Positions 25,301-42,126 of a stretch of 64,000 nucleotides of DNA are shown here, in pieces. The position numbers were made by a program, and so were the translations under genes. Position 1 is the first letter of the stretch; every line of letters starts with the position of its first letter. A model generated the notes under the pieces. That model was not told the origin of the DNA. It saw nothing but the letters and a program-made list of their open reading frames with translations, and did no database searches. This DNA comes from Luteithermobacter gelatinilyticus (GTDB lineage Bacteria; Pseudomonadota; Alphaproteobacteria; Sphingomonadales; Emcibacteraceae), in contig NZ_CP040517.1 in NCBI RefSeq assembly GCF_005849285.1, positions 2,424,501-2,488,500 on the forward strand. The letters run 5' to 3'.

Positions 25301-26530
25301 CTAGAATTTGGCCGCCAGCGTCAGCCAGATTTTTGTCGTATCGGTGGCAAAGGCATCGGCCTCATAAAACGCCGCCTTGACAGAAGCCGTATAGTGTTTG
25401 GCAAAGGGTTTGGAGACCAGAAAGTCCCATTCGCTGCCATAACTTACCCCGCCCACATCCGAAGAAAAGTCATGATAGATGCCTTTCAGCAGCAGGCCGG
25501 CAAGCGGTCCCTCTCCCATCATTTTATAGGCCAGGGAAACACTGATGTCTTCCAGGCCCTGGGCCGGTGTGGAGAGGAACTTGTCCGCCCAGCCGTTAAA
25601 TTTATGCAGCGTGGCCAGAGGGGTCTGGAAACTTACCCCATTGTCGCTCCCCAGAAGCTCATATCCAAAACCCGCCGTGAAGCCAGCGGTTGACACGCTG
25701 AGCGCCGCATTCCAGTAATCCGCCTGATACTCAGCCGGGTTGTCCTCATAATCGCTCTGGCGCGCATATTCCAGTTCATATCCCAGCCGGACGGTGTCCG
25801 TGACCGCTTGGGCGCCCGCAAAACGCACCCCGTAGGTGCTGCTGGACAGGCCAAGCACCGGCGCGTCATTGAGGTCGAGCAGATAGGCATAAGCGGTGAG
25901 TTTGCCGAATTCCAGTCCCGAATAGCTCACATTGATCAGATGGGTATTCGTATCCAGATCACCCAGTGGATGATCATCGCTGAAAATCCGGTTGACATTC
26001 CAGACATAGCCATACAACGCCGTCAGCTCTTTGATCGGTGTCACGGTCGCCGTGACGATGTCATAGGTCTGGTCATTCTGGCGAAATCCGACGGTACCGA
26101 TAAAGCGCTGATTGTCCAGATTAACGCCGATGCGGCCCGCCTTCAGCGTGAACAGGTCCTGGGTATAGGCCAGATAAGCCTGGTTGACTTCCGTGCTTTC
26201 CGGATCAGCAACCACGGGGCGGTCGGTCTTGCCATTGATGGTATTGTTGTAATTCTCGTCCCCCACCACGGTCACATTGGTGACTTCCGCAAATCCGCTT
26301 ATCCCTTTCAGGCTAGCGGTTTTGTACCATAGTTTGCTTAACAGGGTGGATGCCGTGGCATCTTTTTCAAAACCATCCTGATCGACATTTTCAAACCGGT
26401 AGCGGAACGCCAGTCCGGCATCGCCCTGGGTGAACATTTCCGTAAAATTTGCGGCCTCCCCGGCCCCGGCTGGCGCACTGGCCGACAGCGCCAGTACCCC
26501 AGCCAGACATGAAAGGGCAATTTTTTGCAT
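25301..26530 (-). CDS. Outer-membrane beta-barrel porin at the end of the nar operon
   Basis: A 409-aa precursor with a signal peptide (MQKIALSCLAGVLALSASAP, cleavage likely after AGA near residue 24). The mature part has alternating polar/apolar strands and ends in Phe (LTLAAKF), as outer-membrane barrels do. It has motifs such as LKAGRIGVNLDNQRFIGTVG typical of alginate-export-like or general porins. The ATG at 26530 follows AAGGAGTAAGAGTG. It begins 49 bp after the parvulin-related gene, so it is most likely transcribed with nar. A role in nitrate or nitrite passage is inference. Confidence 0.75.
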   Translation of the reverse strand: MQKIALSCLAGVLALSASAPAGAGEAANFTEMFTQGDAGLAFRYRFENVDQDGFEKDATASTLLSKLWYKTASLKGISGFAEVTNVTVVGDENYNNTINGKTDRPVVADPESTEVNQAYLAYTQDLFTLKAGRIGVNLDNQRFIGTVGFRQNDQTYDIVTATVTPIKELTALYGYVWNVNRIFSDDHPLGDLDTNTHLINVSYSGLEFGKLTAYAYLLDLNDAPVLGLSSSTYGVRFAGAQAVTDTVRLGYELEYARQSDYEDNPAEYQADYWNAALSVSTAGFTAGFGYELLGSDNGVSFQTPLATLHKFNGWADKFLSTPAQGLEDISVSLAYKMMGEGPLAGLLLKGIYHDFSSDVGGVSYGSEWDFLVSKPFAKHYTASVKAAFYEADAFATDTTKIWLTLAAKF

Positions 26531-26578
26531 CACTCTTACTCCTTAAAACAACATTTTTGGGAAAAACATCTTCGAATG

Positions 26579-27726: not shown

Positions 27727-28425
27727 CTATGAATGATGAGGGCTGGAAGCCCCGCTCCTCCCGGCGCGGTGCCGGGTAACCTGCGGGCAAAGATTGCAGT
27801 CCGCCGTGTCCGTGCCATCGAAGGCGGGAGCTTCTTCCCATTCCCTGTCAAGCGCCTCAAGACTCGTATCCTCGCGGGCGGCATCGTCCATCGCCTGCTG
27901 GACGATCTTCTTGTCCACCTTGACGCTGCTTAACGCTTCCAGCGCCCGGAAGACATGCCGGTAGGAACTCCCTTTCACTTTCATCTTGGCACCGATGGTG
28001 GCGATGATATGCACCGTGTCCCCCAACAGCTCCTGCGCCTCGGCGAAAGGCGACACAGAAAGGAATTCCAGAAACAGCGGCAGATAATCCGGCAGTTCGT
28101 TGGCGGCGATTCTGAAACCCTGCCGGGCGTAATATTCCATAAGATCAACCATGGCCGGACCGCGGTCCCGGCTTTCGCCGTGAACATGTTCAAACAGATA
28201 CAGGGAATGAGACCGTCCCCTGTCAAACAGGGACACGTACTCTTCCTGGATGGAGAGGATATCGTGACGGGCCAGATCATCCATGAACACAAACAGCGGT
28301 TTGCGAATTTTTTCGGGGATCAGCCCCTCATCAACAAGAATGGTTTTCATCTCGGCCATATGCTGCTGCAGTTCCTCATGGGGATATGTCAACAACAGCC
28401 CGAGGACTTTAAACGTACGCATCAT
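27727..28425 (-). CDS. narJ: Nitrate reductase molybdenum cofactor assembly chaperone
   Basis: A 232-aa TorD/NarJ-family chaperone that holds NarG during Moco insertion. Typical features are LGLLLTYPHEEL near the N-terminus, YVSLFDRGRSHSLYLFEHVH (near 65-80) and YLPLFLEFLS. The C-terminal tail is longer and more charged than in E. coli NarJ. The start ATG overlaps the narH stop, so the two are translationally coupled. Confidence 0.95.
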   Translation of the reverse strand: MMRTFKVLGLLLTYPHEELQQHMAEMKTILVDEGLIPEKIRKPLFVFMDDLARHDILSIQEEYVSLFDRGRSHSLYLFEHVHGESRDRGPAMVDLMEYYARQGFRIAANELPDYLPLFLEFLSVSPFAEAQELLGDTVHIIATIGAKMKVKGSSYRHVFRALEALSSVKVDKKIVQQAMDDAAREDTSLEALDREWEEAPAFDGTDTADCNLCPQVTRHRAGRSGASSPHHS

Positions 28426-29975
28426 GATTTCCTTATGTTGCCGTTCATGGTGTTTTTGTGGGTCGGACCGCCAAACAGTCCCCCGGTGCGCGCCGCCCCC
28501 CCGGCACAGCCATTGCCAAAGCTGAAACCGCAGGCGGAACGGGTTTCAAAGGCAATGTCATTATCAAACGGGGTCTGACCGGCATATTCCCGGTGGTTGG
28601 TGGGGATCACAAAACGGTCTTCATACTCCGCCAGCGCCATGATCCTGTACATTTCCTCTACGGTTTTGGCCTCCAGCTCAACCCGTTCAAGCGCCCTTAT
28701 ATCCCCATTTCCGTTGATGGTTTTGGCCCGCATATAGCTGCGCATGGCCAGCATGCGCTCCAGCGCGTGCACCACCGGTTGTTCCCGGCCACCCGTCAGC
28801 ATATTGGCAAGATATTTCACTGGAATGCGCAGATTTTTCACATCCGGCATGATGTCATCCCCAGCGATCTTGCCCTCTGTATGGGCGCTTTGAATGGGGG
28901 AAAGCGGCGGAATATACCAGACCATCGGCAGGGTGCGGTATTCGGGATGCAACGGGAAAGCCACCTTCCAGTCAATCGCCATTTTATAGACCGGCGATTT
29001 TTTTGCCGCCTCAAGCCAGCTGTCGGGCACGCCATCCTTGCGGGCCTGTTCAATCACCTTGGGATCATGCGGGTCAAGGAAGATGTCGCACTGGGCTTGA
29101 TACAGGTCCCCTTCATCCGCCGTCGCGGCCGCTTCCTCGATACGGTCCGCGTCATACAACAACACGCCAAGATAGCGGATGCGTCCGACGCAGGTTTCCG
29201 AACATATAGTCGGATCACCGTTTTCAATACGCGGGAAACAGAAAGTGCATTTTTCCGATTTGCCAGACTGCCAGTTGAAATAGATCTTTTTGTAAGGGCA
29301 GCCAGACACACACATGCGCCAGCCCCGGCATTTGTCCTGGTCGATGAGCACAATGCCGTCTTCCTCGCGTTTATAGATGGCACCAGAAGGACAGGCCGCC
29401 ACGCAGGTCGGGTTCAGGCAATGCTCGCACAGCCGCGGCAGATACATCAGGAAGGTGTTTTCAAACTGACCATAAATATCCTTCTCAACATCTTTGAAGT
29501 TATAGTCCCGGGAACGTTTTTCGAACTCGCCGCCGAGAATCTCCTCCCAGTTGGGCCCCCATTCCGGTTTTTCCATTTTCTCTCCGGTAATGGCGGAATG
29601 GGCCCGCGCCGTCGGCGGTGTCTTCACGTCGCCCGCCGTTTGCAGATGGGCGTAATCAAACGTGAAGGGTTCATAATAGTCGTCAATTTCCGGCAGGTCC
29701 GGATTGGCAAAGATTTTGGCCAGGAGCCGGAACTTTCCGCCCATTTTCGGCTGGATCTTGCCATTGGACTTGCGCACCCAGCCGCCGTTCCAGCGGTCCT
29801 GGTTTTCCCATTCCCGCGGATACCCCACACCGGGTTTGCTTTCCACATTGTTGAACCAGGCATATTCAACGCCTTCACGGCTCGTCCAGACATTCTTGCA
29901 GGTCACCGAACAGGTGTGGCACCCGATACATTTGTCCAGATTGAGAACCATCCCGATTTGTGCACGTATCTTCAT
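28422..29975 (-). CDS. narH: Respiratory nitrate reductase beta subunit (iron-sulfur)
   Basis: A 517-aa electron-transfer subunit with four Fe-S clusters. The Cys groups are CIGCHTCSVTCKNVW, CEHCLNPTCVAACPSG, CRGWRMCVSGCPYKK (Trp in place of Cys, which gives the 3Fe-4S cluster as in E. coli NarH) and CTFCFPRIENGDPTICSETC. It lies between narG and narJ and is complete. Confidence 0.97.
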   Translation of the reverse strand: MKIRAQIGMVLNLDKCIGCHTCSVTCKNVWTSREGVEYAWFNNVESKPGVGYPREWENQDRWNGGWVRKSNGKIQPKMGGKFRLLAKIFANPDLPEIDDYYEPFTFDYAHLQTAGDVKTPPTARAHSAITGEKMEKPEWGPNWEEILGGEFEKRSRDYNFKDVEKDIYGQFENTFLMYLPRLCEHCLNPTCVAACPSGAIYKREEDGIVLIDQDKCRGWRMCVSGCPYKKIYFNWQSGKSEKCTFCFPRIENGDPTICSETCVGRIRYLGVLLYDADRIEEAAATADEGDLYQAQCDIFLDPHDPKVIEQARKDGVPDSWLEAAKKSPVYKMAIDWKVAFPLHPEYRTLPMVWYIPPLSPIQSAHTEGKIAGDDIMPDVKNLRIPVKYLANMLTGGREQPVVHALERMLAMRSYMRAKTINGNGDIRALERVELEAKTVEEMYRIMALAEYEDRFVIPTNHREYAGQTPFDNDIAFETRSACGFSFGNGCAGGAARTGGLFGGPTHKNTMNGNIRKS

Positions 29976-29986
29976 TTCTGCTACTC

Positions 29987-32900
29987 CTATTCCGCGACCT
30001 GAACAGATGTGTCACCATCCGCCGGGTCTTCGCCCCACTCCACATTTTCGGCCTTGCGCACGACCACAAACTCGTCCCGGTTGGATCCAACCGTACCGTA
30101 GTAGTTAAATCCGTAAGACAGTTGCGCATACCCGCCGATCATATGGGTGGGTTTGAGCACCGCCCGGGTGACGGAATTATGAATGCCGCCGCGGGCGCCA
30201 GTGATTTTGGACAAGGGGGTGTTAACGATTTTCTCCTGGGCGTGATACATCATCGTCATGCCTTCGGGCACCCGCTGGGACACCACGGCCCGGGCCATAA
30301 TCACGCCGTTGCTGTTATACAGCTCCAGCCAGTCGTTATCTTTCACGTCCATCTTGCGGGCGTCGGTTTCTGAAATCCACACCACCGGCCCCCCCCGGTT
30401 CAGCGTCAGCATCAACAGGTTGTCGCTGTAGGTGGAGTGAATGCCCCATTTCTGGTGCGGCGTGATCCAGTTGAGCACCACTTGTTTTTTGCCGTCACCA
30501 TATTTGTCGATCACCGGTGCGATGGTTTTGGTGTTCACCGGCGGCTTGTAGACGCAAAAGCCCTCGCCGAAATCGCGCATCCATTCATGGTCCTGATAGA
30601 ATTGCTGGCGACCGGTTAGCGTGCGCCACGGGATCAGTTCATGCACATTGGTATATCCCGCATTATAACTGACATGTTCATCCTCAAGACCGGACCAGGT
30701 GGGTGAAGAAATGATCTTCCTCGGCTGCGCCTTGATGTCATGGAAGCGGATCTTCTCTTCCTGTTTCGGTTTGGCAAGATGGGTATGTTTACGACCCGTC
30801 ACCTCGCCCAGTGCCGCCCATGATTTTACAGCCACATTGCCATTGGTTTCCGGCGCGAGGGAAAGCACCACTTCCGTGGCATCCACATCCGTAACAATTT
30901 TCGGCAGCCCCTCATTAACCCCAGGGTCATTGTGAGTGCCGTTCAGGCGCGCCAGCAATTCCACCTCCTCATCGGTGTTCCAGCTGATGCCCTTGCCGCC
31001 ATTGCCCAGTTTCCCCATCAGCGGACCAAGCGCGGTAAAACGCTTATAGGTATTGGGATAATCCCGGGTGACTTCCACAAGGGCGGGCATGGTTTTGCCC
31101 GGAATGGGTTCGCATTCGCCTTTTTTCCAGTCGGCCACGCCCAGGGGTTGCGCCAGTTCACCCGGCGTATCATGCAAAATGGGCAGGGTGACGACATCCT
31201 TTTCCACGCCCAGATGTCCCTCGCAAACTTCCGAGAATTTTTCTGCAATCCCGCGGTAAATGTCCCAGTCGCTGCGGCTTTCCCAAGCCGGATCCACCGC
31301 GCGGGTCAGCGGGTGAATAAAGGGATGCATGTCGGAAGTGTTGAGGTCGTTCTTTTCATACCAGGTGGCCGACGGCAACACGATGTCCGAATAGACGCAG
31401 GTGGTAGACATCCGGAAATCCAGCGTCACCACAAGATCCAGCTTGCCCTCCGGCGCGTCCTCATGCCAGACCACTTCGCTGGGTTTCTGTCCCCCGCTTT
31501 CCCCCAGATCCTTGCCCAAGAGGCCATGCTGGGTGCCCAGCAGGTGTTTGAGCATATATTCATGCCCCTTGCCCGAGGATCCCAACAGGTTCGACCGCCA
31601 GATAAACATGTTGCGAGGAAAGTTTTTGGGATTGTCCGGATCTTCGCAGGCAAATCCCAGCTCCCCGCTTTTCAGCTTGTCCACCACATAATCCGCCACC
31701 GGCTGGCCGGCTTCTTCTGCGGCCCGGGCCACCTTCAGGGGGTTATCATTGAGCTGCGGCGCGGACGGCAGCCAGCCCATGCGCTCTGAACGCACATTAC
31801 AATCCACAAGCGTGGTGTTCTGCCATTTGTCCCGGTCCGCAAGCGGCGAAAGAATTTCATCCACTTCCAGTTTTTCATACCGCCACTGATCCGAATGGGC
31901 GTAGAAAAAGCTGGTGGAATTCATCTGCCGCGGCGGACGCGCCCAATCCAGCCCGAACGCCAGCGGCAGCCATCCGGTTTGCGGACGCAATTTCTCCTGG
32001 CCCACATAATGGGCCCAACCGCCCCCCGATTTGCCAACACAGCCGCACATGATCAGGAGATTCATAATCCCACGGTAATTCATATCCATATGGTACCAGT
32101 GATTGATCGCCGCCCCCAGAATCACCATGGACCGCCCGCGGGTCTGGTCCGCATTCATGGCGAACTCCCGCGCCACCTGGATCACCTTGTGGCGATCCAC
32201 GCCGGTGATTTTTTCCTGCCAGGCCGGCGTATAGGGCACATCATCGTCAAAGGAAGAAGCCACATTGTCGCCGCCCAACCCCCGGTCCACGCCGTAATTG
32301 GCGACCAGCAGGTCAAACACCGTGGCGACCTTCACCGGGCCATCCTTGGTCTCAACGACTTTCAGCGGCACGTGCCGTTCCAGAACGCTGTCATGATCCG
32401 TGTGTTTGAAGATGGGCTGGTCATTGACGATATTGCCGAAATAGGGGAACGCCACCGGCGCGACCTCATCACGGTCCTCCAGAAGAGAAACTTTCGGCCA
32501 CACATCACTGCCATCAGCCACATTCTTCAGTTCCAGATTCCATTTTTTGCTTTTGTCCCAGCGTGAACCGATGGTGCCGTTCGGCACACAGACTTTGCCG
32601 GACGTCCCGTCAAGAATGGTGGCTTTCCATTCGGCATGCTGCGCCTCGCCCAGACTATTTTCAAAATCAGACGCCCGCAGTAACCTGTCGGGCACCAGTT
32701 TACCGTCTTTTTCTTCAAGCCGCACCAGGAACGGCATATCGGTATACATGCGGCAATAATCGTCAAAATATTCGGATTTTCCGGCAACATGGAACTCTTT
32801 GAGGATCACATGTCCCATGGCCATGGCCATGGCGCTGTCGGTTCCCTGGCGCGGATTGAGCCAAATGTCCGTCAATTTGGCCACTTCCGAATAGTCCGGG

Positions 32901-33745
32901 GTCACGGAGACGGTCTTGGTGCCTTTATACCGAACCTCGGTGAAGAAATGGGCGTCGGGCGTGCGGGTTTGCGGCACGTTGGAGCCCCAGGCAATGATAT
33001 AGCCGGAATTATACCAGTCGGCGCTTTCGGGCACGTCCGTCTGCTCGCCCCAGGTTTGCGGCGAACTGGGCGGCAGGTCGCAATACCAGTCATAAAAAGA
33101 CATGCACACCCCGCCGATCAGCGACAGATAACGGCTTCCGGCGGCATAGGAGATCATCGACATGGCCGGAATCGGCGAAAAGCCGATGATACGGTCAGGG
33201 CCAAATTCTTTTGCGGTATAGACATTTGCCGCGGCAATAATCTCATTCACCTCGTCCCAGCTGGAGCGCACGAACCCGCCCAGACCTCGGACCTGTTTAT
33301 AAGCCCGCGCCTTATCCGGATCGCAGACAATGCTCTGCCAAGCCTCCACAGGATCCGGATGTTCGGCCTTGGCCGCGCGCCACAGTTCAATTAGCCGACG
33401 GCGGACCAGGGGAAATTTAAGCCGTGCCGCGCTATAGAGATACCAGCTGTAACTGGCGCCACGGGCACAGCCGCGGGGTTCGTGATTTGGCAGGTCCGGC
33501 CGGGTCTTGGGATAATCCGTCTGCTGGGTTTCCCAGGTCACCAGGCCGTTTTTGACATAAATTTTCCAGGAACAGGACCCCGTGCAGTTCACCCCATGGG
33601 TGGAACGCACCACCTTGTCATGGGCCCAACGGCCACGATAGGCCTTTTCCCAGTCCCGGCGTTCATCGGTTGTGATGCCATGCCCGTTCGCAAAGGTTTC
33701 GGGCGTTTTGGTGAAATAGGAAAGTCTGTCGATAAAATTGCTCAT
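29987..33745 (-). CDS. narG: Respiratory nitrate reductase alpha subunit (Mo-bisMGD)
   Basis: The 1252-aa catalytic subunit that reduces nitrate to nitrite at the cytoplasmic face. The His/Cys ligands of the FS0 cluster are in THGVNCTGSCSWKIYVKNGL and RGCARGASYSWYLYS. The molybdenum ligand Asp is in SFYDWYCDLPPSSP. Later segments RSNLLGSSGKGHEYMLKHLL and GFNYYGTVGSNRDEFVVVRK are standard for NarG. Length is normal. It is followed by narH after 11 bp. Confidence 0.98.
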   Translation of the reverse strand: MSNFIDRLSYFTKTPETFANGHGITTDERRDWEKAYRGRWAHDKVVRSTHGVNCTGSCSWKIYVKNGLVTWETQQTDYPKTRPDLPNHEPRGCARGASYSWYLYSAARLKFPLVRRRLIELWRAAKAEHPDPVEAWQSIVCDPDKARAYKQVRGLGGFVRSSWDEVNEIIAAANVYTAKEFGPDRIIGFSPIPAMSMISYAAGSRYLSLIGGVCMSFYDWYCDLPPSSPQTWGEQTDVPESADWYNSGYIIAWGSNVPQTRTPDAHFFTEVRYKGTKTVSVTPDYSEVAKLTDIWLNPRQGTDSAMAMAMGHVILKEFHVAGKSEYFDDYCRMYTDMPFLVRLEEKDGKLVPDRLLRASDFENSLGEAQHAEWKATILDGTSGKVCVPNGTIGSRWDKSKKWNLELKNVADGSDVWPKVSLLEDRDEVAPVAFPYFGNIVNDQPIFKHTDHDSVLERHVPLKVVETKDGPVKVATVFDLLVANYGVDRGLGGDNVASSFDDDVPYTPAWQEKITGVDRHKVIQVAREFAMNADQTRGRSMVILGAAINHWYHMDMNYRGIMNLLIMCGCVGKSGGGWAHYVGQEKLRPQTGWLPLAFGLDWARPPRQMNSTSFFYAHSDQWRYEKLEVDEILSPLADRDKWQNTTLVDCNVRSERMGWLPSAPQLNDNPLKVARAAEEAGQPVADYVVDKLKSGELGFACEDPDNPKNFPRNMFIWRSNLLGSSGKGHEYMLKHLLGTQHGLLGKDLGESGGQKPSEVVWHEDAPEGKLDLVVTLDFRMSTTCVYSDIVLPSATWYEKNDLNTSDMHPFIHPLTRAVDPAWESRSDWDIYRGIAEKFSEVCEGHLGVEKDVVTLPILHDTPGELAQPLGVADWKKGECEPIPGKTMPALVEVTRDYPNTYKRFTALGPLMGKLGNGGKGISWNTDEEVELLARLNGTHNDPGVNEGLPKIVTDVDATEVVLSLAPETNGNVAVKSWAALGEVTGRKHTHLAKPKQEEKIRFHDIKAQPRKIISSPTWSGLEDEHVSYNAGYTNVHELIPWRTLTGRQQFYQDHEWMRDFGEGFCVYKPPVNTKTIAPVIDKYGDGKKQVVLNWITPHQKWGIHSTYSDNLLMLTLNRGGPVVWISETDARKMDVKDNDWLELYNSNGVIMARAVVSQRVPEGMTMMYHAQEKIVNTPLSKITGARGGIHNSVTRAVLKPTHMIGGYAQLSYGFNYYGTVGSNRDEFVVVRKAENVEWGEDPADGDTSVQVAE

Positions 33746-33769: not shown

Positions 33770-35413
33770 TCAAGGATTTTTCACATAGGCGTTGCGACGC
33801 AGATAGAACCACCAGTTGATCAGGATGCAGACCGTGTAGAAAATGGCGAAACCATACAGTGCATATTCCGGTGTGGTGGCCTTGATCTGTTCCCCGAAAA
33901 CCTGCGGAATGATGAAAGCGCCGTAAGCCGCCACCGCTGAAGTCCAGCCCAAAACGGGACCCGCCTGTTCCTTGTTGAACACCATGGCAATGGTGCGGAA
34001 GGTGGACCCATTGCCGATGCCGGTGGCCGCAAACAGAATGATAAACAGGATCAGGAAGGGATAAAAATAATCCTCAGGGGTGGCGGAGGCATAGGCCGCC
34101 TGCATGAAATAGGCCACACCCAGTGCCGACAAGACCATTACCACGCTGATGATCTGGGTCACTTTCGCCCCACCCATCCTGTCCGCCAAGGCGCCCCCCA
34201 GCGGGCGGATCAAAGCGCCAATGAACGGCCCCATCCAGGCATAGGTTAGGGCGCTGGGACCATTGGGATTGACTGTGCTGTGGGTCATGACTCCATCAAC
34301 CAGAATATGCTGATAGCCGAACACCACCTTGATCGCGAGCGGCAACGCTGCGGAAAAACCGATGAAAGAACCAAAGGTCATGGTGTAGATAATGGTCATG
34401 GCCCAGGTGTGCTTGTTGCTGAAAATCTGGAACTGACGTTTCAGATTGGCCTGGATCTTGCCCGGGATCAGCCGCAACAACAGCAGGGTGAGCACGATCA
34501 CCAACGGCAACACGATCCACTTGTTGAGTTCTGTCCCCGCCCCGCCGGTCGCCGCCGGCAGCATCAGCCACAGTCCAAACGCCGCCGTCAGCAAACCAAT
34601 GGCCAACATGCCCAGAATTTTAGCGAAGGCCGGCAACGCCGCCTTGGCATCCGGAGAGACATGTTCGTCACGAATGTTATTCATGCCAAACCAGATGGCA
34701 AACGACAGCGGAACAAGGAACAGAAGCCACACCCAGCCGGCATTAAAGATATAGGTTTCAGTCCCTGCCGGGATTTTGCCGATCAGCGTGCCGGAGGTGT
34801 TCTGAAGCGTCATGCTTTCGCCGCCGAACAGTCCAAACGTCATCACCAGCGGCACCAGGATCTGCATTGTCGTGACCCCGAAATTCCCGAGGCCCGCATT
34901 CATGCCCAGCGCATATCCCTGAATTTTCTTGGGATAAAAGAAGCTGATATTGGACATGGAGGAGGCAAAATTACCCCCGCCCAGGCCCGACAGCAGAGCC
35001 ATCAATTGAAACTGCCACAGAGGGGTTTCAGGATTCTGAAGCAGGTACCCAGTCCCAGCCGCCGGAATAATCAGCAACGCCGTCGTGAGGAAAATGGTAT
35101 AACGTCCGCCCGCAATGCGGATTAGAAAAGAACTGGGAATCCTCAACGTGGCCCCGGAAAGCCCGGCAATCGCCGCCAGTGTGAAAAGCTGGCTTTGCGA
35201 AAACGGAAAGCCGAGATTAAGCATCTGCACCGTGATGATGCCCCAGTAGAGCCACACCGCAAACCCGCATAGCAACGCCGGAATGGAAATCCAGAGATTG
35301 CGGGTGGCAATGCGCCGGCCTTCCGACTGCCATTGTTGTTCATTATCCGGGTTCCAACCGATAATATCCCGGCCTGTTTGCTGAAAACCTTGTACTGTTT
35401 CCTCGGATGACAT
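33770..35413 (-). CDS. narK2: Nitrate/nitrite transporter NarK2-type (MFS)
   Basis: A 547-aa, 12-helix MFS transporter. The nitrate signature motifs are seen as GLGGGNFASSMSNISFFYPK and AGLGNFGVTTMQ in the first half and a second copy around TGIGNGSTFRTIAMVFNKEQ. The long soluble N-terminus with WNPDNEQQWQSEGRRIATRN is typical of the type-II NarK that exchanges nitrate for nitrite. AAAGGAGAGAAACA precedes the ATG. It lies between narK1 and narG. Confidence 0.93.
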   Translation of the reverse strand: MSSEETVQGFQQTGRDIIGWNPDNEQQWQSEGRRIATRNLWISIPALLCGFAVWLYWGIITVQMLNLGFPFSQSQLFTLAAIAGLSGATLRIPSSFLIRIAGGRYTIFLTTALLIIPAAGTGYLLQNPETPLWQFQLMALLSGLGGGNFASSMSNISFFYPKKIQGYALGMNAGLGNFGVTTMQILVPLVMTFGLFGGESMTLQNTSGTLIGKIPAGTETYIFNAGWVWLLFLVPLSFAIWFGMNNIRDEHVSPDAKAALPAFAKILGMLAIGLLTAAFGLWLMLPAATGGAGTELNKWIVLPLVIVLTLLLLRLIPGKIQANLKRQFQIFSNKHTWAMTIIYTMTFGSFIGFSAALPLAIKVVFGYQHILVDGVMTHSTVNPNGPSALTYAWMGPFIGALIRPLGGALADRMGGAKVTQIISVVMVLSALGVAYFMQAAYASATPEDYFYPFLILFIILFAATGIGNGSTFRTIAMVFNKEQAGPVLGWTSAVAAYGAFIIPQVFGEQIKATTPEYALYGFAIFYTVCILINWWFYLRRNAYVKNP

Positions 35414-35453: not shown

Positions 35454-36785
35454 TTACCCCTTCATCCCTTCCAGTTCCGGCAGGTTGTGAGGCCCGCGCA
35501 GTTCGGGATTGCGCTGTTTTTCAAGGCGCCGGATCGCAAAGTGCATCCAGGTCAGCGCTATGGCGATAATGACAGTCAACAGCATGAAACAACTGGTCCA
35601 GACCCCGATCAGGTCATTCATTGCCCCAAAAATAATCGGCAGGAAAAAGCCGCCCAGGCCGCCAACCAGTCCAACCATGCCGCCCACGGACCCCACATGG
35701 TTCGGGTAATAAACGGGGATATGTTTGTAGACAGCGGCCTTGCCCAGCGACATGAAGAAGCCGAGAATCACGGTCAGCGCAACAAATACCTCAAGCGGAA
35801 TTGTGATGTTGAATTCAATGGGGCCGTTAATGCCAGCCACCCGGTAATCCGTGGAAGGATAGGACATGATGAATGTACAGATGACGCTGGCGATAAACGT
35901 CCAATACATGACAGTCCGGGCCCCGTATTTATCAGACATCCAGCCGCCCAGCGCCCGGAACACTGATCCTGGCAGGGCATACATGGCGGCCAGCATACCG
36001 GCCGTTTTCAGTTCCAGCCCATAGGCCCCCACATAATAACGCGGCAACCACAAAGCCAGCGCCACATAGGCGCCGAAAACAAAGAAATAATACAGTGAAA
36101 ACCGCCAGACCTGCTGCTTCTTGAGCGGTTCGATCTGTTCCAGGAAAGAGGGATGTTTCATCCCTGAAGTCTTGTGGGTGGCATGAACCGGATCGTCTTT
36201 GGAAAACAGGTAAAACAGAATCGCTGTCACCGCCAGCACGATGGCATAAACCTGGGCCACACCCTGCCAGGCGCCACCCATGGCCGCCAGCAGGAACGGC
36301 GCGCCGAAATTGGTGACCGCCGCCCCCACATTCCCCATGCCGAAAATACCCAGCGCCGTCCCCTGTTGTTCCTTGGGGTACCAGCGCGAAACATAGGCCA
36401 CGCCAACGGCAAAGCTGCCCCCCGCCAGGCCCACGCCCAGCGCCGCGACAAGAAACATTTCGTAACTGCTGACCAGAGTCAGCAAATAGACTGCCACCGC
36501 CGTGGTCAGCATCTGCAGGGTATAGACAAGCCGTCCGCCATACTGGTCCGTCCAGATCCCCAGAAACAGCCGACTCAGGGAGCCAGTCAGAACCGGTGTG
36601 GCAACCAGCAGGCCGAATTGAGTATCATTCAGCCCGAGTTCGGCCTTGATTCTGATGCCGATAATGGAAAAAATCGTCCAGACGGCAAAACATACGGTAA
36701 ATGCCAGTGTGCTGGTAGACAGCGCACGATACTTATCCCCCGGCCTTACCGGGACATCGCCTTTATTTGCCAACGTATCGGTCAC
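35454..36785 (-). CDS. narK1: Nitrate/proton symporter NarK1-type (MFS)
   Basis: A 443-aa, 12-helix transporter with GLAGGSFAVGVAYVSRWYPK and GIFGMGNVGAAVTNFGAP, the type-I nitrate motifs. I set the start at GTG 36785, which has AGGAGGAAGTT directly upstream. The longer open frame that begins at TTG 36866 is not coding because that TTG is part of the FNR-type box. It is the first gene of the nar operon. A CACAAT -10 (36832-36827) lies at the right distance from the box at 36853-36866 for class II activation. Confidence 0.92.
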   Translation of the reverse strand: MTDTLANKGDVPVRPGDKYRALSTSTLAFTVCFAVWTIFSIIGIRIKAELGLNDTQFGLLVATPVLTGSLSRLFLGIWTDQYGGRLVYTLQMLTTAVAVYLLTLVSSYEMFLVAALGVGLAGGSFAVGVAYVSRWYPKEQQGTALGIFGMGNVGAAVTNFGAPFLLAAMGGAWQGVAQVYAIVLAVTAILFYLFSKDDPVHATHKTSGMKHPSFLEQIEPLKKQQVWRFSLYYFFVFGAYVALALWLPRYYVGAYGLELKTAGMLAAMYALPGSVFRALGGWMSDKYGARTVMYWTFIASVICTFIMSYPSTDYRVAGINGPIEFNITIPLEVFVALTVILGFFMSLGKAAVYKHIPVYYPNHVGSVGGMVGLVGGLGGFFLPIIFGAMNDLIGVWTSCFMLLTVIIAIALTWMHFAIRRLEKQRNPELRGPHNLPELEGMKG

Positions 36786-36852
36786 AACTTCCTCCTGATA
36801 CTGTCGCGTTTCAAAATTGAGAACATTGTGACCGCAGGACCGGACCCTGTGC

Positions 36853-36866
36853 TTGACTTTGGTCAA
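36853..36866. promoter_or_regulatory. FNR/DNR-type box in the narK1 / NIT-CRP intergenic region
   Basis: TTGACTTTGGTCAA is a perfect TTGAC-N4-GTCAA dyad. Its centre lies about 27-32 bp upstream of the minus-strand CACAAT hexamer, which places it near -41.5 of the nar operon. It could also serve the divergent regulator gene. The HTH of that regulator has the E-x-x-S-R signature that reads TTGA half-sites. Confidence 0.8.
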
Positions 36867-36914
36867 GTAACGTCGTTTTTTTGGAAAGGCGTCCCGTTCC
36901 CCACTCCGGGAGAT

Positions 36915-38699
36915 ATGGACAAGACAGCAAAAAAAGTATATTCCTCAGCCTTACGTAAAACACAAACGCCCAGACAAATTCCAAAAATAAACAACCAAGA
37001 GCCGGCAGATCAGGGGATAAAGGCGGAAGGCGTGACTAAACCGACTGAGAATACGTTGCTGGTGCAGGACCTGTTGCACAGACTTGGGGATGTTGTGCAT
37101 CAGATTCAGCGCGAGCGCGGCTGTGCCGGACTTTTCCTGGACAGTATGGGAAAAATCTTCACCGAAGAGCTGAATGCACAAAGCAAAACCGTGGATCAGG
37201 CCATTGCCAATCTCCATGACTTTTGCACCCGCCGTGACGTCAAGAACGCCTTGCCGGCGAATTTTGAAGGGCGCCTGAACTTTCTGTTTGTCAAATATGA
37301 TGGCCTGACCGAGTTGCGGGACAAAATGCGCCTGCTGGCCATGCGCTACACCCAGGCGCTTAATACCTATACGTTCAATTTTATCATTCCGACCATCGAC
37401 GCCATGATTGAACTGGCGCAGCGCGAACCGTCCCACAATTCCGCCCTTGTCTCGGCCTATGCCAATTTTTTGCAATGGAAGGAAAGGGTCGGCATGGAAC
37501 GGGCCTTCGGCGCACGCGGTTTTTATACCTTTGCCTTCCGCAATCAAGAATTTTGTGACCGGTTTGTGGCCCTGATCGCAGAACAGAAAACCTATTTCGA
37601 CACATTCAAGGCGCTGGCGTCGCCCTCCCAGATCGCCCTATTGCAGGAAACAGTGGACACAAACGCCCTGGAGGCGCTGAATACGATCAATCGGCTCCTG
37701 GAACAGGAAGCCCCGCCGGGTGAAATTGAGCAATATTCCGGCGAAGCATGGTTTGACATCCTGACCCGTATTATTGACGGCCTCCGATGCGTCGAGAAAG
37801 AACTGGTCCGGGGACTGGTCGGTGTTGACAAGAGAGAAATCAACGCCTCGGCACAAAGCAGGCCCGGGCGATTCACAGATCTGCCCCCGCCGGATGCCGG
37901 CAGCCGGGAATGCCGCAAGCAACCGGGGGTTAAAACCAAACTCGATCAGTATCGCCCGTTTCTTCGCTCCCTGCCCATTTTTGCCGCACTGGAGGAAAAA
38001 GATCTGGAAGAACTGCTGGCCTTTGCGCAGATCAGGGAATATGAAAAGGACAAGCTCCTGATTCTCAGGGACGAACCCGTTTCGCGCCTGTATATTGTCC
38101 TGGACGGCTGGGTCAAGGTCTACAACGGTCTTGAAACCGGGGAAGAGGCCATTCTGCAAATGCTGGGCAGTGGGGAAACCCTGCTGGAATCTGCGGTTTT
38201 TCTTAATGTGCCCACGCCGGTCAATGCCCAGGTGGTCGAACGGGCGCTGCTGCTGTCCCTTCCCGCGCCGGTGATCCGGCAATATATCCAGTCCAGCCCA
38301 CAACTGGCCATGAACATGCTGAATACGGTCTCTCTGCGTTCCCAGCGGCTGGTGCAGCAGATCGAACTGTCCCGCCTCAAAACCGCCCAGGAACGTGTAG
38401 GCTGGTTTCTGCTTCGTCTGGCACTGAATCAGAAACCGAAGGATGGCAGGGTGGTTCTGCCTTATGAAAAATCCATCATTGCCTCTTATCTGGATATGCG
38501 GCCGGAAACCTTTTCCAGATCCCTGAAAAAGTTTAAGGCAGAAGGCTTTGATGTGAACACCGATAGTGTCAGAATCCCTCATGACCGGGCCCTGTGCGAC
38601 TATTGTGACGTGGAACTGGCCAGCCAGTGTGATAGCGCCGGAACCGAGGATTGCCCCCGCCCCGAATTGGCTGATGCGGTCAATTCCACCGACACTTGA
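36915..38699 (+). CDS. NIT-domain / CRP-FNR fusion transcription regulator
   Basis: A protein of up to 594 aa. Residues about 50-290 form a NIT (nitrate/nitrite-sensing) domain, recognised by VHQIQRERGCAGLFLDS, LQWKERVGMERAFGARGF and RFVALIAEQKTYFDTFKALA. After a Pro/Arg-rich linker come a cyclic-nucleotide-binding-fold domain (about 345-460) and a Crp-type HTH (about 490-545) whose recognition helix RPETFSRSL has the E-x-x-S-R set that contacts TTGA. A tail with Cys at about 561, 564, 572 and 580 (C-x2-C-x7-C-x7-C) follows. The start is uncertain: ATG 36915 (GGGAG close by) or GTG 37032. The open frame reaching back to 36174 overlaps narK1 and is spurious. It lies divergent from narK1 and upstream of moaA, so it is the obvious nar regulator. 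Confidence 0.88.
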   Translation: MDKTAKKVYSSALRKTQTPRQIPKINNQEPADQGIKAEGVTKPTENTLLVQDLLHRLGDVVHQIQRERGCAGLFLDSMGKIFTEELNAQSKTVDQAIANLHDFCTRRDVKNALPANFEGRLNFLFVKYDGLTELRDKMRLLAMRYTQALNTYTFNFIIPTIDAMIELAQREPSHNSALVSAYANFLQWKERVGMERAFGARGFYTFAFRNQEFCDRFVALIAEQKTYFDTFKALASPSQIALLQETVDTNALEALNTINRLLEQEAPPGEIEQYSGEAWFDILTRIIDGLRCVEKELVRGLVGVDKREINASAQSRPGRFTDLPPPDAGSRECRKQPGVKTKLDQYRPFLRSLPIFAALEEKDLEELLAFAQIREYEKDKLLILRDEPVSRLYIVLDGWVKVYNGLETGEEAILQMLGSGETLLESAVFLNVPTPVNAQVVERALLLSLPAPVIRQYIQSSPQLAMNMLNTVSLRSQRLVQQIELSRLKTAQERVGWFLLRLALNQKPKDGRVVLPYEKSIIASYLDMRPETFSRSLKKFKAEGFDVNTDSVRIPHDRALCDYCDVELASQCDSAGTEDCPRPELADAVNSTDT

Positions 38700-38709
38700 C
38701 GCAGGTCAA
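38696..38709. promoter_or_regulatory. Second FNR/DNR-type box, upstream of the Moco riboswitch and moaA
   Basis: TTGACGCAGGTCAA is again a perfect TTGAC-N4-GTCAA dyad and overlaps the stop codon of the NIT-CRP gene. A TACTAT hexamer at 38743-38748 could be the -10. It probably drives moaA-moeA in step with nar. Confidence 0.75.
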
Positions 38710-38754
38710 GCCGCCCATCTGCGGTTCGGATTAAAAGATTCATACTATAAGATT

Positions 38755-38880: not shown

Positions 38881-39858
38881 GTGACTCTTAGCGACGGATT
38901 TGGCCGCACCTTCAGATATCTTCGGCTATCAATTACCGAAGCCTGCAACTTTCGCTGCAGCTACTGCCTGCCAGACGGATATAAAAAACGGCCCGGTCCC
39001 GCGCCATTATCCCGCGTCGAATTGCGACGCGCAGCTACGGCATTTTCCGAACTCGGCCTGACAAAAATCCGCCTCACGGGCGGCGAACCAACCCTGCGCA
39101 AGGATTTCGAACAAATTGCTGCTGATATCAGCGCTTTGCAGCAGGTCCGCACCCTGGCCCTCACCACCAATGGCTACCGGCTGGAAAAACGGGCCCATCT
39201 CTGGCGCGCCGCCGGCATCAACGCGCTCAATATCAGCCTGGACAGTCTGGACCGCGAACGTTTCCGTCAGATTACCGGCCATGACCGCCGTGACGAAGTG
39301 CTGCGCGGCATTGACGCCGCCTTTGAAGCGGGGTTTGAAACCATCAAAATTAATGTGGTTTATATGAAGGGGCTGAATGATCATGAAGTTGGGGATTTCA
39401 TTAACCTTACCCGTGAACGCCCCCTGTCTGTCCGGTTTATCGAACTGATGGAAACCGGTGAACACGCGGCCTTTTTCACCCGCCATCATATTCCGGCTGA
39501 CACCATCGCCCGCAAGCTGTATCAGCAGGGCTGGACCCCGAAACTAAAGGCCGCTGATGCCGGTCCCGCCAATAACTTCATCCATCCCGACCATCGGGGC
39601 AGTATCGGCCTGATCGCCCCTTATTCAAAGGATTTCTGCCAAAGCTGCAATCGCCTGCGGTTTTCCAGCTTCGGCAATCTTCATCTGTGTCTGTTTGGTA
39701 ATTTTGGTCTTCCCCTGCGCCGTTATCTCCAGCATGACGAACAGATCGGGGATCTGAAACAGCAGTTGATCAAAGCCGTCCGGCGCAAAACCGCCGGGCA
39801 TCAGCTGGCACAACACCAGACCGGCATGACCGGCAATCTTTCCGCCATCGGCGGTTGA
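38881..39858 (+). CDS. moaA: GTP 3',8-cyclase MoaA
   Basis: A radical-SAM enzyme that starts molybdopterin synthesis from GTP. The N-terminal cluster motif is EACNFRCSYCLP (C-x3-C-x2-C). The C-terminal second cluster is in CQSCNRLRFSSFGNLHLCLF, and the protein ends with the conserved Gly-Gly. It has 325 aa from GTG 38881, preceded by AAAGGAGACC; the frame extending upstream lies in the riboswitch and is not coding. Its place next to nar resembles moaA1 of Pseudomonas. Other Moco genes must be elsewhere. Confidence 0.95.
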   Translation: MTLSDGFGRTFRYLRLSITEACNFRCSYCLPDGYKKRPGPAPLSRVELRRAATAFSELGLTKIRLTGGEPTLRKDFEQIAADISALQQVRTLALTTNGYRLEKRAHLWRAAGINALNISLDSLDRERFRQITGHDRRDEVLRGIDAAFEAGFETIKINVVYMKGLNDHEVGDFINLTRERPLSVRFIELMETGEHAAFFTRHHIPADTIARKLYQQGWTPKLKAADAGPANNFIHPDHRGSIGLIAPYSKDFCQSCNRLRFSSFGNLHLCLFGNFGLPLRRYLQHDEQIGDLKQQLIKAVRRKTAGHQLAQHQTGMTGNLSAIGG

Positions 39859-39930: not shown

Positions 39931-41199
39931 ATGTCCAATACCCCGTCCTCCCAAGGCATGCCGATGACCATGCAGTCCTATGACGACAGCCTGGCACGCA
40001 TTTGTGCCGAAGCAGCCCCCCGCCCCCCCGTCTCCCGACCGCTTTTTGAAAGTGTGGGCCTGGTGCTGGCGGAAGACCTCACTGCGCCCCTTTCGGTCCC
40101 GTCCTTTGACAACAGCGCCATGGACGGATTTGCCTTTTCCGCTGCGGCGGTCGCGACAGCCACGCCGGACAGGCCAATAAGGCTCACCGTAGCAGGCGCC
40201 AGCATCGCCGGCGCAGAACCCCCGCCGCCCTTGCAGAAAGGAACCGCCGTCAAAATCATGACCGGCGCCCCTCTGCCGAAGGGGGCCGATACCATCCTGC
40301 CGGTCGAAGCGGCAGGATGGGATCACGAAACGCTGATCTTCGACCGCCCCTATCCCGCCGGCCGGCATGTGCGGCGGGAGGGAGAAGATATCATGGCGGG
40401 CGCTCCCCTGCTTGCCGCCGGAACTCGGATCGCACCGCAACATCTGCCGTTGCTGTGTGCAGCGGGACAGGCCCGTCTGCCGGTTTCTCCCGCTCCGAGA
40501 GTGGTTTGGATTTCAACGGGACAGGAAATTTCCGACGATTTCAACGCGCCGCTGACCGCCGGGCAGATCTATAACGCCACCCGGCTTTATGGACAGGTCA
40601 TGGCCTCTGACATAGGCATGAAGATAATCGGCAGCTTCACCGTCAGGGACACGCCGGAAGATTTCGCCGATGCCCTGCATCAGGCGCTGGAGAGCGACCC
40701 GGACCTTATTCTTTCCACCGGCGGGGTTTCGGCAGGACAGTATGATTTTGTCCGTCCGGTCCTGGAACGCATCGGCGCGGATATTATCCTGCACAAGGCA
40801 CGGATCAAACCGGCCAAGCCGGTGCTGTTCGCCCGCCTGCAACAGGGCAGTTTTTTCTTCGGCCTGCCTGGCAATCCGATCTCCACGGCCCTGGCGCTCA
40901 GAATTTTTGTGGCTCCATTCATACGCCGGTTTACCGGACGCGCACCGGAAACGATGCGGAAGGCCCGGCTGGCCGGCGCGATTGAAACCGCGGACGACAA
41001 AACCGTGTTCCTGATGGGCACGGTGGCACCGGACGCCACAGGCGCTCTGATCGCCACCGCCCAAACCGGCCAACATTCCTTCCGAACCGCATCTTTCGCT
41101 GCCGGCAATGCCTGGATCATTGTGCCCGAAGGCACCGGAAGACTGGAAGCCGGGGCCGAAGTCATCTGGCTACCGTTTCATCCTGAAGCGGCCCTGTAG
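39931..41199 (+). CDS. moeA: Molybdopterin molybdotransferase MoeA
   Basis: Inserts molybdate into adenylylated molybdopterin. The 422-aa product has SVPSFDNSAMDGFAF near residue 55, the MPT-binding VKIMTGAPLPKGADTILPVE and the MoCF-domain motif LILSTGGVSAGQYDFV, then FFGLPGNPISTALALRIFV. ACAGGAGATTACAGCC precedes the ATG. It follows moaA by 72 bp, probably under the same riboswitch and promoter. Confidence 0.95.
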   Translation: MSNTPSSQGMPMTMQSYDDSLARICAEAAPRPPVSRPLFESVGLVLAEDLTAPLSVPSFDNSAMDGFAFSAAAVATATPDRPIRLTVAGASIAGAEPPPPLQKGTAVKIMTGAPLPKGADTILPVEAAGWDHETLIFDRPYPAGRHVRREGEDIMAGAPLLAAGTRIAPQHLPLLCAAGQARLPVSPAPRVVWISTGQEISDDFNAPLTAGQIYNATRLYGQVMASDIGMKIIGSFTVRDTPEDFADALHQALESDPDLILSTGGVSAGQYDFVRPVLERIGADIILHKARIKPAKPVLFARLQQGSFFFGLPGNPISTALALRIFVAPFIRRFTGRAPETMRKARLAGAIETADDKTVFLMGTVAPDATGALIATAQTGQHSFRTASFAAGNAWIIVPEGTGRLEAGAEVIWLPFHPEAAL

Positions 41200-41228: not shown

Positions 41229-41319
41229 CGTCATAGCGAGATGCATTAACGACGAAGCAATCCATGGTTCTGTGGCGTCTGTGGGTTGCCACGCCCCTTT
41301 CAGGGGCTCACGATGACGG
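41229..41319. repeat. CGTCATTGCGAG-type dispersed palindromic repeat
   Basis: The stretch opens CGTCATAGCGAG, contains GACGAAGCAATCCATGG and TGGGTTGCCACGCCCC, and closes GGGGCTCACGATGACG. CGTCAT at the left end pairs with ATGACG at the right. This is the pattern of the widespread proteobacterial repeats of this class. It lies between moeA and the convergent GlmU-like gene, whose last four codons and stop come from its right end. Confidence 0.7.
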
Positions 41320-42126
41320 CCCAGCTTCATCGGCATGGCGAAAAGCATCAGTGGCGACGCAATCCTGTCCGTCTCTGAGCAGTTCCTCAAGGCGGGATAA
41401 TTCGGCAGGGGTGTTCACCCCTGTGACTTCCAGAGGTGATGTTTCCAGGGCAGCCGAGAAATAGCCGGCCTCACGGGCGAGACGGACAAGGTCCGTCAGA
41501 TAATATTCTCCCTTGGCATTTTGATTGTCTAGGCTGTCCAGTAACCGAAACAGCAGCTCCCCACGGATCATCATGATACCTGAATTACACAGTCCGATCC
41601 GCCGTTGTGCCGTCGTTGCCTCCTTATATTCAACAATGGCCTCAAGCTGACCGTCTTCCGACATGACAAGCCGACCGTATTCCCTGCCGTCTTCCGGCCG
41701 GAAGCCCAGAACGGTGACTGCGGGACGTTGGCCCCGGATTGCCGTCTGATGCACCGATTTCATCCTGTGTATGGTTTCGCAGGAAATCAGCGGCACATCC
41801 CCATAAAGCACCAGAACATCCCCGGAAAAACCAGCCAGCTGCTCCCGACAGGTCATGACCGCATGCCCGGTGCCCCATTGTTGTTCCTGAACAGCAAAAT
41901 CAACATTGCGGACAGCCGCCATGACCTGCTCTTTCGCCTCTCCGACCACAACAATCCTTTTCTGTGCCCCCAGCTTCCCGGTCATTTCAAGAAGATGACA
42001 GATCATGGGTTTGCCGGCCAGCGGATGCAATACCTTATGCAGGGGCGATTTCATGCGGGTCCCTTGTCCCGCCGCCAGTATGATCACGGCAAGGGGACGG
42101 GACTGTAACGTCACAGCATGTTCCAT
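41308..42126 (-). CDS. GlmU-like nucleotidyltransferase without the acetyltransferase domain
   Basis: A 272-aa protein matching only the uridylyltransferase half of GlmU. Visible are LAAGQGTRMKSPLHKVLHPL (the G-x-G-T-R-M nucleotide loop), QWGTGHAV, LVLYGDVPLI, NSGIMMI and KGEYYLTDLV. Full GlmU has about 450 aa; the left-handed beta-helix half is missing. The coding sequence ends inside a dispersed repeat, so loss by insertion or deletion is possible. It is the last gene of the 41-52 kb operon. Its product may be a stand-alone enzyme that activates a sugar phosphate; whether it is still active is unproven, although its motifs are intact. Confidence 0.8.
   Translation of the reverse strand: MEHAVTLQSRPLAVIILAAGQGTRMKSPLHKVLHPLAGKPMICHLLEMTGKLGAQKRIVVVGEAKEQVMAAVRNVDFAVQEQQWGTGHAVMTCREQLAGFSGDVLVLYGDVPLISCETIHRMKSVHQTAIRGQRPAVTVLGFRPEDGREYGRLVMSEDGQLEAIVEYKEATTAQRRIGLCNSGIMMIRGELLFRLLDSLDNQNAKGEYYLTDLVRLAREAGYFSAALETSPLEVTGVNTPAELSRLEELLRDGQDCVATDAFRHADEAGPSS

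Follow-up and report, generated by a model that had tools for sequence, protein, structure and literature searches.

Two conserved CRP/FNR-type boxes flank the gene of a NIT-domain regulator between narK1 and moaA in Luteithermobacter gelatinilyticus

A gene for a NIT-CRP regulator, which combines a NIT domain with a CRP/FNR-type DNA-binding protein, lies between two palindromic boxes, the first upstream of the nitrate/nitrite transporter gene narK1 and the second upstream of moaA (Table 1). We consider it probable that both boxes act as class II sites driving narK1 and moaA(-moeA), that the regulator is a one-component nitrate/nitrite sensor, that FNR shares the boxes with it, and that a riboswitch adds feedback. 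According to this model, nitrate or nitrite would be bound by the NIT domain, and the dimer would then bind TTGAY-N4-RTCAA; standing 41.5 bp upstream of the start, the bound dimer would recruit RNA polymerase, with box 1 activating narK1 and, probably, the nar operon along with it, and box 2 driving moaA(-moeA). Production of nitrate reductase would in this way be coupled to that of the first Moco enzyme, an oxygen-sensing FNR in the same cell would read the same boxes and add an anaerobic signal, and, when Moco is plentiful, the riboswitch on the moaA message would shut translation. The window, i.e. the whole 64-kb stretch analysed, corresponds to positions 2424501-2488500 of a genome made up of one contig (3,145,891 bp).

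Table 1. Features at and around the two boxes in the window, and the further perfect TTGACN4GTCAA sites of the genome
Feature	Position	Strand	Remarks
narJ-like chaperone	27727..28425	-	assigned by reading the translation and by operon position
narH-like subunit	28422..29975	-	assigned by reading the translation and by operon position
narG, respiratory nitrate reductase alpha subunit	29987..33745	-	TIGR01580 2211.7 bits, cut-off 1084
narK2-type transporter	33770..35413	-	TIGR00886 7.2e-84, below curated cut-off
narK1-type nitrate/nitrite transporter	35454..36785	-	GTG start after AGGAGG; Pfam MFS_1 7.6e-58; TIGR00886 2.2e-70, below curated cut-off
likely narK1 -10 element, CACAAT	36825..36830	-	predicted start near 36818, placing box 1 at -41.5
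box 1	36853..36866	.	TTGACTTTGGTCAA forward; TTGACCAAAGTCAA toward narK1; predicted CRP/FNR-type site
NIT-CRP regulator	37032..38699	+	NIT, CRP/FNR cNMP-type domain, HTH_Crp_2 and C-terminal Cys tail
box 2	38696..38709	.	TTGACGCAGGTCAA; left arm includes regulator stop codon TGA (38697-38699)
possible moaA -10, TAAAAG	38732..38737	+	predicted start near 38744, placing box 2 at -41.5
Moco riboswitch RF01055	38749..38889	+	69.1 bits, gathering score 36, E 1.4e-14
moaA, GTP 3',8-cyclase	38881..39858	+	TIGR02666 339.6 bits, cut-off 284
moeA-like molybdotransferase	39931..41199	+	MoeA_N 3.7e-43
perfect site	L001		well inside ntrC-like gene (named by reading the translation)
perfect site	L005		overlaps first codons of RidA-like ORF (named by reading the translation)
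perfect site	L006		within a short doubtful ORF
perfect site	L004 1501-1514 (genome 2518799-2518812)		263 bp upstream of nosR-like gene (by reading)

The sequence-only reading of this stretch had described two perfect TTGAC-N4-GTCAA boxes with identical arms at 36853 and 38696, the latter lying over the regulator stop codon and ahead of moaA; both proved exact at these coordinates, the arms of each form exact palindromes, and the TGA does fall inside the left arm of box 2. Neither the NIT domain of the regulator nor the riboswitch ahead of moaA figured in that reading. No other exact TTGAY-N4-RTCAA site exists in the window, in which versions with at most one mismatch numbered 5, against 1.68 expected. 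The genome-wide search that had been proposed returned 6 perfect TTGACN4GTCAA sites (3 for a reversed-pattern control) and 18 TTGAYN4RTCAA sites (4 for the control), and with 6 perfect sites in the genome the chance that a given site has another no more than 1.85 kb away is about 0.006. Two of the six are those upstream of narK1 and moaA. By ORF inspection a single one of the six lies well inside a gene, so that the many random copies in coding DNA which the reading had named as speaking against the boxes were not seen. The perfect site ahead of a nosR-like gene suggests that the regulon may extend to N2O reduction, and genes resembling ccoN, fnrL and that of cytochrome oxidase subunit II are preceded by TTGAT-containing sites (L034, L035, L031).

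The strongest support for the boxes being beyond chance comes from their conservation at both places among relatives. In the eight named relatives (Kordiimonas marina, one uncultured Kordiimonas and six environmental genomes), both positions carry an exact TTGAY-N4-RTCAA (8/8). The analysis covered 32 full-length NIT-CRP loci, comprising the named relatives, other genomes of the order and one genome from another family of the class; dropped were L041-L047, which duplicate contigs already present as seven of L019-L026, and L040, which begins inside the gene; the divergent homologues L151, L152, L154 and L157, as well as second copies (in G437 and G425 among other genomes), stand outside this set. 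Compilation revealed that (i) 31 of the 32 loci have an exact box 1, the exception (L054) being one where narK is not visible upstream on a short contig, (ii) an exact box 2 is present in 22 of the 24 loci with moaA downstream, L063 showing one mismatch and L069 no box within range, and in none of the 8 loci without moaA, (iii) the regulator stop codon falls inside box 2 in 7 of these 22 loci, and (iv) the inner letter varies, from TTGAC/GTCAA in the window to TTGAT/ATCAA in several relatives. The moaA calls were made by ORF reading, which is damaged in L022 and cut by the contig end in L065, and in L049 by position and riboswitch match. The narK-regulator-moaA layout is not retained around the four divergent homologues, and in genus g279 moaA lies elsewhere, mostly without a box, though most of those genomes have NIT-CRP. 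Both boxes are thus, as judged from sequence, real CRP/FNR-type sites. That they might be chance palindromes without function, as the five near-matches in the window could suggest, a single box of this kind being not very rare, is refuted by conservation in a fixed geometry over many loci and genera, and we give this view practically no credence.

Porin-like genes recur in these neighbourhoods: in g279 (L052, L053, L055, L056, L057, L062) NIT-CRP is followed by an opposite-strand porin-like gene with its own TTGAY-N4-RTCAA box, in L151 and L154 a boxed porin-like gene stands in front of NIT-CRP, and in the window a porin-like ORF (25301-26533) lies beside the nar operon.

On the narK1 side, the centre of box 1 lies 74.5 bp upstream of the GTG. 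When the loci were aligned on box 1, an A and a T proved conserved on its narK side, at +30.5 and +34.5 relative to the centre; of 27 non-redundant loci, 19 have a -10 hexamer there, which sets the start at +41.5 in class II fashion, against a mean of 2.4 over offsets. The class II spacing that had been suggested for narK1 is therefore upheld, the -10 element lying at +29.5 from the box centre in these 19 promoters, and box 1 is predicted to be a class II site centred at about -41.5 from the narK1 start. Elsewhere in the window, an ORF (53099-55366) resembles, by reading, a quinol-dependent NO reductase, and no TTGAY-N4-RTCAA box for it is present in the window.

Toward moaA, a T at +29.5 and an A at +30.5 from the box 2 centre were seen in 14 and 17 of 22 loci, respectively, and the test with a full -10 was weak (4 of 18 loci at the class II offset and 6 of 18 when moved on by four bases). 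The riboswitch constitutes the moaA leader; it begins 5 bp past the predicted moaA start site (~38744) and covers the ribosome-binding site and the start codon. The moeA-like gene is probably in the same operon. Seven of the eight named relatives have the Moco riboswitch, the other being L022, whose moaA region is damaged. For the order 33 riboswitch matches were listed, 32 of them above cut-off; among the 30 loci inspected, an exact box was found 41.5-76.5 nt upstream of the leader in 17 of the 19 that adjoin NIT-CRP, and in 1 of the 11 situated away from it (at 80.5 nt), all 11 being from a single genus; the box therefore tracks the gene arrangement and not the riboswitch as such. About 110 bp past the moeA end, on the opposite strand, a gene (41308-42126) encodes a short nucleotidyltransferase like the N-terminal half of GlmU, which may conceivably be a Moco nucleotidyltransferase.

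Box 1 had also been thought possibly to serve autoregulation, doubling as a promoter element of the regulator itself. It does lie in the sole intergenic stretch upstream of that gene, and palindromic sites are able to work in both directions. Its distance from the regulator start, however, is 172.5 bp in the window (GTG 37032) and 64.5-288.5 bp elsewhere, and a -10 toward the regulator at the class II offset was seen in 6 of 28 loci, against a background mean of 2.9, and is thus not conserved. We consequently hold autoregulation from box 1 to be rather unlikely, and did not retain the earlier suggestion of it, although repression of the regulator through box 1, or activation from another position, may occur. 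A second dyad resembling ACAAG-N4-CTTGT, on the regulator side of box 1 and some 50-60 nt away from it, recurs in one genus (L058, L060, L061, L066, L067) and is possibly the regulator's own control site.

Pfam searches place the regulator in the CRP/FNR superfamily, with matches above cut-off to PF00027 (cNMP_binding, 3.1e-15) and PF13545 (HTH_Crp_2, 2.8e-9), in addition to PF08376 (NIT; 1.1e-38, 134.4 bits for a cut-off of 24.9). Its NIT half matches NasR (PDB 4akk; E 1.9e-18, family profile) and its CRP half matches DNR (PDB 3dkw; E 5.8e-25) plus other CRP proteins. PF08376 and the homology to NasR mark it as a putative NIT-domain sensor, for which binding of nitrate or nitrite is predicted. 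GTG 37032 is the likely true start, favoured over ATG 36915, because similarity to relatives starts at residue 38-47 of the ATG reading; identity to the eight named relatives reaches 65-70% in the best segment. The recognition helix, PETFSR, is the same in all 37 aligned homologues of full or nearly full length, as are four C-terminal cysteines, spaced CxxC-x7-C-x7-C in the window protein. The E-T-F-S-R of this helix would suit TTGA half-sites, and its E..SR is what we take to be the counterpart of E209/S212/R213 of E. coli FNR. An FNR-type N-terminal cysteine cluster before the cNMP domain is absent from the regulator, the conserved cysteines being all C-terminal. R157 is kept in 36 and E156 in 30 of the 37 homologues; E156/R157 align with E175/R176 of NasR (numbering offset 27, counted on the alignment), which PMC7496416 names as predicted nitrate-pocket residues. 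The AlphaFold model of the regulator (9 sequences) was poor (mean pLDDT 56, pTM 0.34).

A Cys-tailed relative without NIT does occur (G407, L149 and L150); the tail therefore belongs to this particular branch of the CRP family, and NIT was gained or lost on that branch. One further CRP protein of 250 aa with the same Cys tail and no NIT domain (L071 of G115) is encoded beside unrelated genes. The CRP genes at L150 (7240-8028) and L157 (7833-9404) share a gene neighbourhood, each coming after a boxed carbonic anhydrase-like gene (names by reading), and the CRP protein carries a NIT domain in only one of the two genomes. Plasmid matches to the CRP half showed unrelated contexts in the 3 inspected of 62 records.

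In the order sample, NIT-CRP was found in narG-positive genomes only (34/34), the genomes without it comprising 12 narG-positive and 53 narG-negative ones (Fisher 1e-16, kinship ignored); genomes were assigned to the NIT-CRP class when the match extended into the NIT half, and G425 was classed by reading its protein. The box upstream of narK1 is nevertheless present in 7 of 8 narG-positive loci lacking NIT-CRP, one of which (G454) is also boxed before moaA. These 8 are drawn from the 12 genomes after leaving out L155 and L156, whose narG is of a different type and is not immediately preceded by narK, G407 (the NIT-less relative) and G422. It follows that the boxes do not need NIT-CRP, and that an FNR-type protein may also read the narK box. 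Three of the eight loci (L144, L145, L147) have in the place of NIT-CRP a short CRP-type gene, divergent from narK, whose product has a PENLSR helix and lacks the Cys tail. A census of CRP-type proteins, taken as PF13545 matches in the L. gelatinilyticus genome, identified two FNR-like proteins (L007, L009), both with N-terminal cysteines and a VETVSR helix, and a further CRP-like protein (L008), in addition to the regulator itself.

Could these be ordinary FNR boxes, read only by the oxygen-sensing FNR-type protein L007 or L009, with NIT-CRP acting elsewhere or on other sites? Two such proteins are encoded in the genome, narK1 is boxed in 7 of the 8 narG-positive loci without NIT-CRP, many boxes of relatives have the FNR form TTGAT-N4-ATCAA, the same box class occurs at ccoN genes of the order, and moa of E. 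coli is activated by FNR (PMC2408646). Against this, NIT-CRP is locked between both boxes and confined to narG-positive genomes, its recognition helix is invariant, and the window has no further TTGAY-N4-RTCAA site. Perfect TTGACN4GTCAA sites moreover exceed their control in NIT-CRP genomes (201 to 117, kinship ignored) and not in narG-positive genomes without NIT-CRP (17 to 18), with 138 to 107 in the remaining genomes; G444 is a counter-case, as it has the most perfect sites (15) and yet both boxes of its locus are of the TTGAT form. Inner letters of the arms were C/G in 37 of 62 cases for box 1, 20 of 44 for box 2, 16 of 46 for ccoN boxes (30 ccoN loci were read, and the 23 with an exact box were counted) and 3 of 14 for narK boxes without NIT-CRP. 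Relative to ccoN boxes, the arms of box 1 differ modestly (p 0.012, kinship ignored) and those of box 2 do not (p 0.39). As a signature of NIT-CRP, strict TTGAC/GTCAA was put to three comparisons (arm letters together with the ccoN boxes, whole-genome counts, and the sites of three genomes), with a modest difference at box 1, none at box 2 and G444 as counter-case; these trends, small and with kinship ignored, would point to NIT-CRP preferring the C/G form to some extent.

Reading by FNR alone is, on balance, unlikely, and NIT-CRP and an FNR-type protein most likely both read the boxes, as the sequence comparisons suggest. We liken this to Paracoccus because NarR and FnrP both control nar there. 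The proposal that one factor ties nitrate reductase to Moco supply stands as regards shared control, given the conserved second box before moaA; its "one factor" is less secure, since the narK box occurs in loci devoid of the regulator. More tentatively, the regulator might itself be a dual-input AND gate acting on nar and moaA, in which NIT would read nitrate/nitrite and the Cys tail would hold a redox- or oxygen-labile metal cluster. If so, one protein would do the job that is split in E. coli between NarXL and FNR, and enzyme (nar) and cofactor (moaA, with riboswitch feedback) would be controlled at once. The two-box arrangement around the regulator is kept in many related bacteria, and amounts to a compact design in which the regulator gene is flanked by a putative enzyme switch and a putative cofactor switch, with the riboswitch as brake. 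Since the sensor is explicit, being a covalently attached NIT domain, whether a CRP/FNR protein senses nitrate could be examined directly using a single purified protein and a pair of short DNA fragments.

Searches of the open-licence literature brought up no NIT-CRP fusion, and the combination is apparently new; CRP/FNR control of nar, NIT sensors, and FNR with a Moco riboswitch at moaA are already known. From NarR, which to our knowledge is without a NIT domain and was compared by description only, the window regulator differs in its NIT domain and its four-Cys tail. The likeness is that NarR of Paracoccus is an alphaproteobacterial CRP/FNR protein without the FNR-type N-terminal cluster, tied to nar and present beside an FNR (FnrP); it has been stated that NarR replaces NarXL in alphaproteobacteria (review PMC8139620) and that nar of Paracoccus is under both NarR and FnrP (PMC3541799, PMC8139620). 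With NasR, a NIT-ANTAR antiterminator, the regulator shares a NIT sensor homologous over ~250 residues, but NasR binds RNA through ANTAR and serves assimilatory genes, whereas the window regulator has a CRP/FNR DNA-binding part and is predicted to serve respiratory genes. Pseudomonas DNR, whose ligand is haem/NO, has an alignable CRP half and the same PETFSR recognition helix; it is, however, a chain of 227 residues without a NIT domain or Cys tail in the alignment. Bacillus Fnr, which bears a C-terminal [4Fe-4S] cluster, is likewise a CRP/FNR protein with conserved C-terminal cysteines, spaced C(x4)C(x2)C(x3)C in the notation of PMC3520743, against C-x2-C-x7-C-x7-C here, where a cluster is conjectured from the cysteines. 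Finally, moa of E. coli, controlled by FNR, ModE and a Moco riboswitch (PMC2408646), resembles the present locus in having an anaerobic CRP/FNR-type activator site and a riboswitch upstream of moaA, and differs from it in that the box of the window lies within the regulator gene or immediately after it and is paired with a second one at narK.
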